This document shows positions 2,528 to 6,884 of a stretch of DNA of 64,000 bases, piece after piece. Below the pieces are notes generated by a model. The model did not search any database. It had not been told where the DNA came from and worked only from the letters and a program-made list of their open reading frames with translations. Position 1 is the first letter of the stretch. Every line of letters starts with the position of its first letter. Where the stretch lies: NCBI GenBank assembly GCA_030683605.1, contig JAUXPL010000011.1, forward strand, positions 1-64,000. Direction: 5' to 3'. Origin of the DNA: Candidatus Altimarinota bacterium (GTDB lineage: Bacteria > Patescibacteriota > Gracilibacteria > BD1-5 > UBA6164). The position numbers and the translations under genes were made by a program.

Positions 2528-2555
2528 TTGACAAAATCATTAAAACTAATATATT
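2528..2555 (+). promoter_or_regulatory. Sigma-70-like promoter for the thrS leader transcript
   Basis: TTGACA at 2528-2533 and TATATT at 2550-2555 with a 16-bp spacer. The predicted start near 2562 lies about 20 bases before the leader peptide start. A second TTGACA at 2494 may add to promoter strength. Confidence 0.65.
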
Positions 2556-2582: not shown

Positions 2583-2642
2583 GTGAACCTAGCACAACTT
2601 GTAACCATAACTACTACAACTACTACTTCTATACTCAAATAG
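2583..2642 (+). CDS. Threonine-rich leader peptide controlling thrS
   Basis: A 19-codon reading frame, GTG start and TAG stop, giving M-N-L-A-Q-L-V-T-I-T-T-T-T-T-T-S-I-L-K. Seven of the nine codons from 2604 to 2630 are threonine. An in-frame TAA lies upstream at 2571, so the GTG at 2583 is the only plausible NTG start; AAGG five bases upstream is a weak ribosome binding site. The frame sits just before a terminator hairpin and the threonyl-tRNA synthetase gene. This is the arrangement of the Escherichia coli thr operon leader, where ribosome stalling at Thr codons decides whether transcription continues. The sequence pattern is seen directly; the stalling mechanism is inferred. Confidence 0.85.
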   Translation: MNLAQLVTITTTTTTSILK

Positions 2643-2715
2643 GGGATTTTTGTTTGGTGAAATATGAAATAAATATAACAAAAACTCTTATTTAGCAATA
2701 AATAGGAGTTTTTTT
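2637..2715 (+). promoter_or_regulatory. Transcription attenuator of thrS: antiterminator and terminator
   Basis: Terminator: AAAAACTCTTATTT (2680-2693) pairs with AAATAGGAGTTTTT (2700-2713) around loop AGCAAT and runs into Ts. Antiterminator: AAATAGGGGATTTTTG (2637-2652) pairs with CAAAAACTCTTATTT (2679-2693), with one bulged A. Both structures compete for the same CTCTTATTT segment, because AAATAGGGG mimics the terminator's AAATAGGAG. The antiterminator's first arm includes the leader's last codon and its TAG stop, so a ribosome that finishes the leader would cover it and let the terminator form; a ribosome stalled at the Thr codons would leave it free. Confidence 0.85.
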
Positions 2716-2835: not shown

Positions 2836-4731
2836 ATGACACTTTTATCTACAAAGAGACATTCTCTAGCGCACGTGATGGCGCAAGCAGTGAAACAATT
2901 ATATCCTGAAGCAAAAATAGCTACTGGTCCAGATACTGAAGACGGGTTTTATTATGATTTCGATTTTGGAACTACTGAATTTTCAGATAAAGATTTGAAA
3001 GAAGTAGAAAAAACTATGAAAAAAATCATTACTCAAAATCAAGATTTTAGAAAATTTGAAGTAAGTATCTGAGAAGCTAGAAAAATATTGAATGAAATGT
3101 GAGAATGATTCAAAAATGAATTAGTGGACAAAATTGAAGCAGGTGATATGAAAAAACCTCACCCTAACCCTCTCCTTAAAGGAGAGGGTATAAATGGAAA
3201 ACCTATATCATTTTATTTGAATATTTCAAAATGAGCTAAAGAAACTGATATGCAAATATTTTTGACAAAGGAAGGGGTTTTTCCTGTAGAACTAGATTGA
3301 GACCAAGTAAAAAATCTGAAATTTATAGATATGTGTACTGGTCCTCATGTAGAAAATACTAAAGAATTAGATGCAAACAGTTTCAAATTGGTAAGAGTAG
3401 CTTGAGCTTATTGGCTTGGTAATAGTGATAATCAACAATTGACTAGAATATATGCTTATGCATTTGATAACAAAGAAGATCTAGATAAGCATGTAAATAT
3501 GATAGAAGAAGCAAAGAAAAGAGATCATAGAATAATAGGAGCTAAACTTAAACTTTTTACTATTTCTGATTTAGTTTGACCAGGTTTACCACTATTGCAA
3601 CCTGCTTGAATGATTATTAGACAATCTATAGAGAATTATTTATGGGAATTGCATTCACAAAGAGGATATCAAAAAGTATGGACTCCACATCTAGCAAAAG
3701 AAGCATTGTATGAGACTTCATGACATGCAGGGCATTATTTGGATGATATGTTCAAAGTATATGGAGGAACTAGTAAAGAAACATTTTTCTTGAAACCAAT
3801 GAATTGTCCTCATCATATGCAATTATTTGCTGATAATCAATTCTCATACAGAGATATGCCTGTTAGATATTTCGAACCTGCAACTATTTATAGAGATGAA
3901 AAATCAGGACAATTATCAGGTCTTACTAGAGTAAGAGCAATTACACAAGATGATGGACATTTATTCTGTAGAGTAAGCCAAATAAAAGATGAAGTAAAAA
4001 CTATTACAGATATTATAAAAGAATATTATAATACTCTTTGAATGACAGATGATTATTGGGTATCTCTATCAGTTAGATGAGAAGATAGAACTAAATATTT
4101 ATGAGGTGATGATGTTTGGGAATTAGCTGAATGAGCATTAGAACAAGCAGCAAAAGAAAACAAATTACCGTACAAAAGAGTAGAATGAGAAGCGGCATTT
4201 TATGGACCAAAATTAGACTTTATGTTCAAAGATGCAATAGGTAGAGAATGGCAATTAGCAACTATTCAATGTGATTTCAACTTACCAGTTAGATTTGATT
4301 TGAGTTTCACTAATGAAAACAATGAAAAAGAAAGACCAGTAGTAATTCATAGAGCTATTTCAGGATCATTTGAAAGAGGTATGTGAGTACTTATTGAACA
4401 CTTTGCTGGAGTATTCCCACTATGGATGTCACCTAGACAAGTAATAATTGTACCAGTTTTACCTAAGTTTGATGATTATGCTCAATCAGTTTTAGATACA
4501 TTGAAAACTGCATGAATTAGAGCAAGTGCTGATTTTTCAACTGATTGATTGAATAAAAAAGTAAGAAATGCTGAAAAAATGCATAACAATTACATATTAG
4601 TAATAGGGGAACAAGAAGAAAATGACAAAACAGTTTCAGTAAGAAATTACAAGACTAAAGAGCAAACAGTAGAATGATTAGAAGAATTCAAAACAAGAAT
4701 TTTAACTGAAATAAATACAAGAAGATTGTAG
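2836..4731 (+). CDS. thrS: Threonyl-tRNA synthetase lacking the TGS domain
   Basis: 631 residues. Charges tRNA-Thr with threonine. The protein begins directly at the editing domain (HSLAH near residue 9; the second zinc-type motif CTGPH near 167-171), so the usual N-terminal TGS domain of about 60 residues is absent. The catalytic core has motif 2 ([17 protein letters not shown]), zinc ligands in MNCPHH, DDGH and [13 protein letters not shown], and an anticodon-binding domain at the C-terminus. Start chosen at 2836 because the open frame farther upstream consists of a repeat element. A palindromic element at residues 108-118 adds an in-frame peptide in the linker of the editing domain. Expression is probably controlled by the threonine attenuator just upstream. 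Confidence 0.95.
3157..3188. repeat. Palindromic element inserted in frame in thrS
   Basis: CCTCACCCTAACCCTCTCC then TTAAAGGAGAGGG. It encodes [11 protein letters not shown] and keeps the frame. The same core recurs at 7978, 8045, 23373, 25445 and 46966. Confidence 0.85.
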
Positions 4732-4830: not shown

Positions 4831-5439
4831 ATGAAACGTTTTATACAAAACGTGTTGTTTTTAAATATGTTATTGTTGATGTCTTTTTCATCACATGCAG
4901 CATTTGATGGTACTTGGTCAGCATGTGCACAAGATAATGCATTGACACCAAATTCAGGATGTTCTGTATATTCTTATACAGATACTCCTGGAGTAAACTG
5001 GAATTCAACAAAGTCAAATGGAGATCCAGTTGTATATGGAATGCATGGAGTTAACGTATGGGACTTTATTGAAAATGATGATTTAGGTTCTGGTTCATCA
5101 GGTTTTTTTCAACATGATGGTGATGCCCAAGCTGGAACATGGTCTATTAATGCAAGTTTGTGGAACTTGTTTGATGATATTGCTTTAGTATTCAAAGATG
5201 GTAACGGTACATCACTTGTATCATATCTACTTGCAGATAATTCTGTATCTGGTAGTTATACTTCACCATTTACCACGGTTATGTTTCCGAATGCTCCTGG
5301 CAGGAATACAAAAGACATTTCCAATATGTCATTGTGGGGTACTGAAAAAACTGTTACAGTTGATGAGCCAACTACATTACTCTTAATGTCTTTAGGAATG
5401 ATTGTTTTTGGTTATTCACATAGAAAATCCTTGGGTTAA
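4831..5439 (+). CDS. PEP-CTERM-like secreted protein, probably foreign
   Basis: 202 residues. An N-terminal signal peptide (MKRFIQNVLFLNMLLLMSFS, likely cleaved after SHA) is followed by a beta-rich Gly/Ser/Asn body and a C-terminal tail: DEPTT, hydrophobic LLLMSLGMIVFGY, then basic HRK. This is the layout of PEP-CTERM exosortase substrates of Gram-negative bacteria, with DEP in place of PEP. All 19 glycines use GGN; none uses TGA, unlike every long neighbour. It also has a strong ribosome binding site (AAGGGG at 4818-4823), which native genes here lack. These features together suggest recent transfer from a standard-code bacterium, possibly a host or prey. No exosortase is visible in the window, so sorting is doubtful. 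Confidence 0.75.
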   Translation: MKRFIQNVLFLNMLLLMSFSSHAAFDGTWSACAQDNALTPNSGCSVYSYTDTPGVNWNSTKSNGDPVVYGMHGVNVWDFIENDDLGSGSSGFFQHDGDAQAGTWSINASLWNLFDDIALVFKDGNGTSLVSYLLADNSVSGSYTSPFTTVMFPNAPGRNTKDISNMSLWGTEKTVTVDEPTTLLLMSLGMIVFGYSHRKSLG

Positions 5440-5582: not shown

Positions 5583-6884
5583 ATGATATACGATATAATA
5601 ATAATTTGAGCTTGAGCTGCCTGATTGTTTGCTTGAATAAATGCACCTAAAAATTTAAATAAACTAATTCTAGAAAAAAATGATAAACCTTGAATAAAGG
5701 TTTTATTGTCGTGAGGAGAAAGAGCTAATGTTTCAAATATTGATATAGAACCAGAGAGAGATTATTTTACTCAGAATAAAAAATCACTATTAAGCGTGTT
5801 CAAAAAATATAATCAATGGGATATTATGAGTTTTTTTGCTTCAGTATGAGTAAATATAGTAGAAGAAGATAGAGGGAGATTGATATTAGAAAGTGGAGAT
5901 AGTAAAGAATTGTTATCAGTATTATTAAGAGAAGTGGAAAAAAATAATTGTGACTTGAGAGTGAAACAAGATGTGAAGAGAATATTACCACCTTATAAAC
6001 AACAGGACCAACCTCACCCTAACCCTCTACTCCGTTCTAACTTCGAAGATAGTCGTGCAAGCACTCCTGTCTCAGTTATCCTTAGAGGAGAGGGAATAGA
6101 AAGATTATATGAAATAATTACAGAATCATGAGAAAAATATCATACAAAAAATGTAATTGTATCTAGTGGATGAAAGAGTTTTTTTCAAGTATGAACGACT
6201 TGAGAATGATATAATTTTGCAAAAGATTTGTGAATAAATATTATTACTCCATATAGAACTCTTTGCGGTATGAGTACAAAAAGAGATTTGAGTGAGATAA
6301 GCTGAGTAAGTAGTGATTTGGATATGAGTTTGATAACCTCACCCCCAACACCTCTACTCCGTTCTAACTTCGAAGATAGTCGTGCAAGCACTCCTGTCTC
6401 AGTTATCCTTAGAGGAGAGGGGAGTAAAAAGGAAGAAATTATTTATCAAGAAGTTTGACCTATGCTTTTTACTCATTTTTGAGTAAGTTGACCAATAATT
6501 CACAATGTTTCAAATGCTATATGAGAATATTTGAATAAATTGTGATTAGAAGAAGAATTATTTGAGAAATATATACTTGATAATCTGAGTTTGAAATTGG
6601 TATTTGATATAGAAAAAACTCCTAAAAGATTAGTTAAATTTTTTGAATTATCAGAACAAAATACTGAGATAATATTAGAATTACAAAATTGGAGAAGCTG
6701 GAAAGAAGCAAAAGCAACATGAGGATGAATAGATATGAATGAACTCGATAAAAATATGCAGTCAAAGAAATATCCATGATTGTATTTCATATGAGAAGTT
6801 GTTGATATTACAGGGAAAACTTGAGGATTCAATCTACAATGGGCATGGAGTAGTGCCTATGTGTGTAGTAAAAGTTTTAATTAG
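5583..6884 (+). CDS. BaiN/HI0933-type FAD-dependent oxidoreductase
   Basis: 433 residues. N-terminal FAD-binding motif MIYDIIIIGAGAAGLFAGIN, the family motif LSGGERANVSN (normally GGGRCNxTN), and the C-terminal signature GGIDMNELDKNMQS ... YFIGEVVDITGKTGGFNLQWAWSSAY identify the HI0933/BaiN flavoprotein family, whose members reduce diverse substrates in the cytosol. Most of the glycines in these motifs are TGA codons. Two nearly identical 83-86 bp palindromic elements are inserted in frame at residues 144-171 and 252-280; both encode LLRSNFEDSRASTPVSVILR. The physiological substrate is unknown. It lies upstream of the ABC exporter genes, separated by repeats. Confidence 0.88.
6012..6094. repeat. 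Long-form palindromic element, copy 1 in baiN-like gene
   Basis: Starts CCTCACCCTAACCCTCTACT and ends TTAGAGGAGAGGG. About 50 extra bases, including TTCGAAGATAGTCGTGCAAG, separate the two palindrome arms found in the short form. About 70 bp are identical to the copy at 6337. Confidence 0.85.
6337..6422. repeat. Long-form palindromic element, copy 2 in baiN-like gene
   Basis: Same core as the copy at 6012, also in frame; only the first 15 or so bases differ (CCTCACCCCCAACACCTCTA). Confidence 0.85.

Follow-up and report, generated by a model that had tools for sequence, protein, structure and literature searches.

Comparative evidence for a threonine-codon leader-peptide attenuator upstream of thrS in a UGA-glycine bacterium of the Gracilibacteria

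Control of the threonyl-tRNA synthetase gene thrS takes different forms in different bacteria: in Firmicutes it is usually exerted by a T-box, and in Escherichia coli by a translational operator to which the enzyme (ThrRS) itself binds. Both systems have the same target gene as the locus described here, but they rely on protein binding or on direct sensing of tRNA and not on a translated leader. The E. coli thrL leader of thrLABC (Rfam RF00506, Thr_leader) resembles our locus in combining a short leader that carries a run of Thr codons with a mutually exclusive antiterminator and terminator, and it contains a NusA-responsive polymerase pause, thrL1 (PMC9291695). It controls threonine biosynthesis, however, and senses isoleucine as well, whereas the target here is thrS. 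Leader-peptide attenuation of an aminoacyl-tRNA synthetase operon is exemplified by E. coli pheM of pheMST (PMC9291695), which differs from our locus in its Phe codons and its lineage and has no sequence relation to it. Leader-peptide attenuation in general has been described mainly from Proteobacteria, Actinobacteria, and some Firmicutes (PMC2965389). The same source offers a comparison-predicted attenuator before a synthetase gene outside the Proteobacteria, the histidine leaders of Bacillus hisS and hisZ (Naville and Gautheret 2010, PMC2965389), but these involve His codons, Firmicutes, and gene duplicates, and no covarying 5′ hairpin is reported in the accessible part of that paper. The openly licensed literature yielded no report of a leader-peptide attenuator in Gracilibacteria, Patescibacteria, or CPR, in line with the initial annotation of this locus, which knew of no ribosome-stalling attenuator of thrS in CPR bacteria; such an absence is not proof.

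The window, that is, the whole stretch of DNA that was analyzed, comprises 64,000 nucleotides of a Candidatus Altimarinota bacterium (contig JAUXPL010000011.1, positions 1 to 64,000). The initial annotation had proposed that a promoter, a leader, a terminator, and an antiterminator precede thrS, and all four were recovered at the positions it gave (Table 1). Its 19-codon frame, which has no UGA, stands, but the seven Thr codons that it counted among nine are in fact seven of eight consecutive codons (leader codons 8 and 10 to 15); at a Thr rate of 6%, the chance of at least 7 Thr in 18 residues is 5e-5. The promoter matches at 11 of 12 positions and was the top sigma-70-like site in a pattern scan of the first 6 kb, and its position predicts a transcript start at about 2562. 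In homologous leaders, the best upstream promoter site scores at least 10/12 in 80% of cases versus 5% of shuffled upstream regions, with the −10 element at a near-constant distance. The annotation had also proposed that an antiterminator arm overlapping the leader stop copies the terminator arm, and indeed AAATAGGGG (2637-2645), which overlaps the stop, duplicates AAATAGGAG. The folding check that it recommended gave −16.1 kcal/mol for the terminator (z −6.6) and −11.7 kcal/mol for the antiterminator (z −3.5). The leader terminator, whose stem is A+T rich, was not listed by the pattern scan and is shown by direct folding and comparison. The identity of the ThrRS was confirmed by Pfam and PDB comparisons, in which its N terminus gave no match to a TGS domain.

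Table 1. Features of the predicted thrS attenuator and its target gene (positions in the window)
Feature	Position	Strand	Description
Promoter	2528..2555	+	−35 TTGACA 2528-2533, −10 TATATT 2550-2555, spacer 16
Hairpin P1	2576..2590	+	AGG 2576-2578 : CCU 2588-2590, 3 bp; 9-nt loop holds start codon
Leader peptide gene	2583..2642	+	GTG 2583 to TAG 2642, 19 codons, (M)NLAQLVTITTTTTTSILK*; homologous leaders in relatives
Near-invariant CANNACUU-G motif	2592..2601	+	CA 2593-2594, ACUU 2597-2600; predicted polymerase pause
Thr-codon run, putative sensor	2604..2627	+	ACC ATA ACT ACT ACA ACT ACT ACT
Possible protector hairpin 1:2	2626..2645	+	CUUCUAU 2626-2632 : AUAGGGG 2639-2645; RNAfold of 2562-2650
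Antiterminator segment 2	2637..2654	+	AAATAGGGGATTTTTGTT; overlaps leader stop; folding and covariation
Segment 3	2677..2693	+	AACAAAAACTCTTATTT; common to antiterminator and terminator; folding and covariation
Intrinsic terminator	2680..2715	+	stem 2680-2694/2699-2713, T-run 2709-2715; folding and covariation
thrS, threonyl-tRNA synthetase	2836..4731	+	631 aa, 18 UGA read as Gly

We consider it highly probable (about 0.9) that positions 2528 to 2715 form a ribosome-mediated transcription attenuator through which thrS would be transcribed when charged tRNA-Thr is scarce. The locus holds a short open reading frame rich in the cognate codon, a terminator before the gene, an antiterminator that uses the 5′ arm of the terminator, and a geometry in which segment 2 is covered by a ribosome at the stop but not by one at the sensor codons. 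RNA polymerase would start near 2562 and would pause at U2600 behind P1 until a ribosome initiating in the P1 loop opened the hairpin and went on to translate the leader. With plentiful Thr-tRNA the ribosome would reach the stop and cover segment 2, the terminator (3:4) would form, and transcription would end at about 2715; with scarce Thr-tRNA it would stall on the Thr run, the free segment 2 would pair with segment 3, the terminator would not form, and thrS would be transcribed. The direction of regulation, tRNA-Thr charging as the signal, and the polymerase pause are what we infer from this arrangement.

Both competing stems covary. When arms were exchanged between genera and duplex energies compared, the native terminator duplex (3:4) had −10.4 kcal/mol versus −4.7 kcal/mol for swapped arms, and the antiterminator duplex (2:3) had −12.2 versus −8.4 kcal/mol. 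Across a 36-sequence alignment, 91.1% of terminator cells were paired, with 73 double changes, versus 45 to 64% when the arms were slid, and the antiterminator was paired in 75.3% versus 48 to 58%; no shuffle reached the covariation score of either. In a further fold, the RNA ended at segment 3 and the stretch occupied by a ribosome was masked. Antiterminator pairing was 0.54 with the ribosome on a Thr codon, 0.31 without a ribosome, and 0.02 with it on the stop, the last because the stop lies over segment 2, a position that is itself a conserved feature; pairing was higher in the stalled state than at the stop in 41 of 42 cases. The 1:2 protector hairpin, which would secure termination of untranslated RNA and was absent from the initial annotation, is predicted in the fold of the window and has a weak comparative signal (swap test, p=0.07). 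Compared across relatives, the overlap of the stop codon with segment 2, the Thr run, the two exclusive stems, the promoter, the linkage to thrS, and P1 with its spacing are conserved, and the proposed reading of a Thr-codon leader-peptide attenuator before a UGA-glycine ThrRS gene thus gains comparative support, its Thr codons, competing stems, and promoter sequence all being kept in related genomes. The loss of codons and stems among relatives, which the initial annotation had named as refuting its proposal, was thus not seen.

In the order to which the window belongs, thrS was located in 71 of 77 genomes, and leaders upstream of it were found in nearly all genomes of the family of the window and in most of a second family. 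A 45-nt model (R1) of the 5′ part of the leader matched 46/48 family genomes, in essentially one copy each, and upstream of thrS wherever leader and thrS share a contig. The idea of a generic 5′ module common to other leaders was rejected on this distribution. Second R1 matches in G060 and G043 were weak, and the two second matches that were inspected (G024, contig C12; G060, contig C15) have no terminator and were taken as chance. The leader peptides range from MNLAQLVTITTTTTTSILK through MLALLVTTTTTTLY to MVAQLETLTTLGHLS. In 42 leaders with 654 residues in all, 175 residues are Thr (26.8%, versus 5.9% in thrS of the window), and the Thr codons vary synonymously among ACT, ACA, ACC, and ACG. 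Leaders with one or two Thr codons exist as well (L064, MLAKLDTIILA; L175, MVAQLDTKIFDFSHKK; L179, MRLALLDTLSYFYLLK), and no leader was found before thrS in some genomes of families f3 and f2 (e.g., L032-L034, L047, L049, and L056). In several genomes leader and thrS are separated, over as much as about 4 kb, by repeats or further genes. At L171-L178, from several genomes, additional genes (e.g., small lipoprotein-like and GIY-YIG-like) come between the terminator and thrS; these too may be controlled by the attenuator, or its connection with thrS may have been lost.

The leader matched no Rfam family, and with 14.9 bits against a cut-off of 55 it has no detectable homology to Thr_leader. The Rfam T-box model matched neither the window nor any of 20 further loci from the class and the order, and GGGTGGNA words of T-box type that precede thrS in other classes were discarded, none being confirmed by Rfam. 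R2, a covariance model of the entire leader that was trained on a single family, found the leaders of the other family, which it had not seen, and also those of family f13 of another order (MMHLGTTTTTTTSQ, MHLETTTTKTTSTTA). In 380 genomes of the phylum, R2 gave three matches at E<=1e-3 besides that of the window itself; these lie outside the class and were provisionally treated as chance. In a sample of 60 genomes from the rest of the class, the DNA before thrS was screened for short frames that contain a Thr run and have a T-run behind them. Such leaders were detected in 23 of the 60, versus none in 10 × 60 shuffles and 3/60 reversed sequences; they occur in families f4, f7, f8, f9, f13, and f17 (e.g., MSYSTTTTTTTTTD, MKHIHSTTTTTTTTTIV, and MKSTTTTTTTTTE). 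Outside the class, a short Thr-run frame precedes thrS in 2 of 60 loci. In one of these, from a genome of another class of the phylum (L362, G520), the Thr-run leader MSTTTRTTTTILPL lies just upstream of thrS and is followed by a strong terminator; it looks real, and its design suggests an independent origin of the same arrangement. Being common in the class and rare outside it, the predicted control of thrS by a Thr leader is a trait at the level of the class, either old or repeatedly gained. The initial annotation had found it striking that so reduced a genome should hold an attenuator; the proposed attenuator stands, but it is no peculiarity of a single genome: it extends through the order and reappears elsewhere in the class. 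A search of five genomes for amino-acid-run leaders before other synthetases (Ile/Leu/Val/Met; the Ser/Pro/Gly/His class; Trp/Tyr; Phe) found none that was convincing. The comparison genomes are mostly draft assemblies and are related to each other, and the between-genera swap and slid controls offset this kinship only in part.

The arrangement is like that of the E. coli thr leader, as had been proposed, but that comparison did not predict an additional conserved RNA element at the 5′ end: unlike in thrL, the N-terminal codons and the hairpin P1 are conserved here. P1, too, was absent from the initial annotation; it surfaced unprompted in RNAalifold as a 3-bp stem between the SD-like AGG and a CCU just past the start codon. 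It covaries across relatives, where it takes five versions (AGG/CCU, AGC/GCU, ACC/GGU, AAG/CUU, and AGU/ACU), and is paired in 95.4% versus 12 to 53% when slid; these counts were made on alignment A1 and without an alignment, as the MAFFT alignment A2 of the 5′ module puts P1 in the wrong place in some rows. In 50 of 60 leaders, the distance from the end of a 3-bp Watson-Crick stem to the last U of ACUU is exactly 10 nt; at the other offsets tried (4 to 19), such a stem is present in 0 to 14 of 60. G follows ACUU in 55/60. In 53/60 leaders the Thr codons begin with ACC or ACG, a pair that accounts for 13% of the Thr codons in twelve thrS genes. In hairpin-stabilized pauses, the hairpin lies 10 to 13 nt from the paused end, position −1 is a pyrimidine, and position +1 is G (PMC12288461, PMC9291695). 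The distance of the P1 duplex falls within this range for an RNA duplex upstream of the paused 3′ end of a his-type pause, and the leader fits Y−1 and G+1 of the consensus G−10 Y−1 G+1, its G being at −9 and not at −10. The P1-ACUU-G geometry thus appears to be that of a hairpin-stabilized polymerase pause, with a predicted RNA 3′ end at U2600 and G2601 next, which would explain why the N-terminal codons of the leader are conserved at the nucleotide level. We tentatively propose, at close to even odds, a ribosome-loading checkpoint in which P1, its loop containing the start codon, holds polymerase at ACUU-G until initiation, coupling every transcript to a ribosome before the Thr test.

The main alternative to a polymerase pause is a purely translational role of P1. 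The attenuator would be the same, but P1 and ACUUG would mask the start codon, slow initiation, or contribute to stalling through the nascent MxLAQL peptide. That the stem encloses or overlaps the start codon, and that even the diverged family f3 retains the motif A-x-L-x-T in its peptides, would fit such a role, and we regard it as a serious contender, if one that we would not bet on. Against it, the Leu is CUU in 58/60 leaders although CTT supplies only 31% of the Leu codons in twelve thrS genes, and the constraint is therefore on nucleotides and not on the amino acid; the spacing from P1 to ACUU is fixed, and many leaders no longer have the SD-like AAGG (AAGC, AAAG, and AACC instead).

Two further readings would dispense with the Thr codons as the sensor. 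ThrRS, or another protein, might bind the leader RNA, much as the E. coli enzyme does at its operator, through P1 and ACUUGUAAC, which resembles the anticodon loop of tRNA-Thr(UGU), and so alter termination, with the Thr codons secondary. The likeness to the CUUGUAA loop is visible in the sequence, and GCACAACUUGUAACC is conserved at the nucleotide level, CTT included. However, the third anticodon-like base varies, the codon after CTT being GTA, GAA, GAT, GGT, GGA, GTT, AAC, or others; Thr-run leaders elsewhere in the class occur without the motif; and the Thr run is left unexplained. We find such binding very improbable, and mimicry of the anticodon loop by CUUGUAA was rejected on the variation at the position equivalent to U36. 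That the short open reading frame is incidental, and the terminator a plain intergenic or constitutive one, for instance at the end of an upstream unit, is harder still to credit: the repeat that separates the terminator from thrS and the leaders with few Thr codons agree with it, but two families conserve the Thr enrichment, the reading frame, the position of the stop, and a second stem that competes with the first, and the upstream neighbor gene in the window is on the opposite strand. Ribosome-mediated attenuation remains our preferred reading. Its type is known, that of the classical attenuation of thrL and pheM in E. coli; the gene and the lineage are apparently new, and the 5′ module apparently a variant.

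The surroundings of thrS have features of their own. The repeat between the terminator and thrS is a long and near-perfect palindrome (about 2721-2817, −57 kcal/mol) with CTCCCCTTGTCAGGGGAG in both orientations; it is not part of the attenuator device, and in relatives this site is occupied by different repeats or by genes, or is empty. An element, CCTCACCCTAACCCTCTCC, is present in 8 copies in the window (0 expected), at 3157-3190, 6012, 7980, 8060, 23376, 23580, 25445, and 46966; it lies in frame within thrS and a flavoprotein gene (5583-6884) and therefore adds peptide segments to proteins. Directly 3′ of thrS, positions 4831-5439 encode a secreted-looking 202-aa protein, without UGA codons, whose C terminus resembles a PEP-CTERM sorting signal (VDEPTTLLLMSLGMIVFGYSHRK; TIGR02595, 15.9 bits against a cut-off of 16); its gene was possibly acquired from a bacterium with the standard code. 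On the minus strand, 325-2418 encodes a 697-aa protein with UGA as Gly and a pseudopilin-like N terminus (TIGR01710 GspG, 35 bits), a region of which weakly matches models of the leptospiral surface proteins Lsa33 and LipL45. The number of in-frame UGA codons per thrS in the order runs from 0 (e.g., G020, G023-G027, G029, and G004) to 33, and the use of UGA as glycine would accordingly be very uneven within the order, or gained or lost there.

The leader could serve as a compact natural reporter of Thr-tRNA charging, and its fixed P1-to-ACUU-G geometry makes pausing in a CPR leader directly testable in vitro with one short template. The checkpoint, if true, would make this a novel form of attenuator and would indicate that ultra-reduced CPR bacteria exploit transcription-translation coupling. 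An attenuator on thrS that is conserved through an order and recurrent through a class of genome-reduced bacteria would imply working transcription-translation coupling and amino acid sensing in organisms credited with little regulation.
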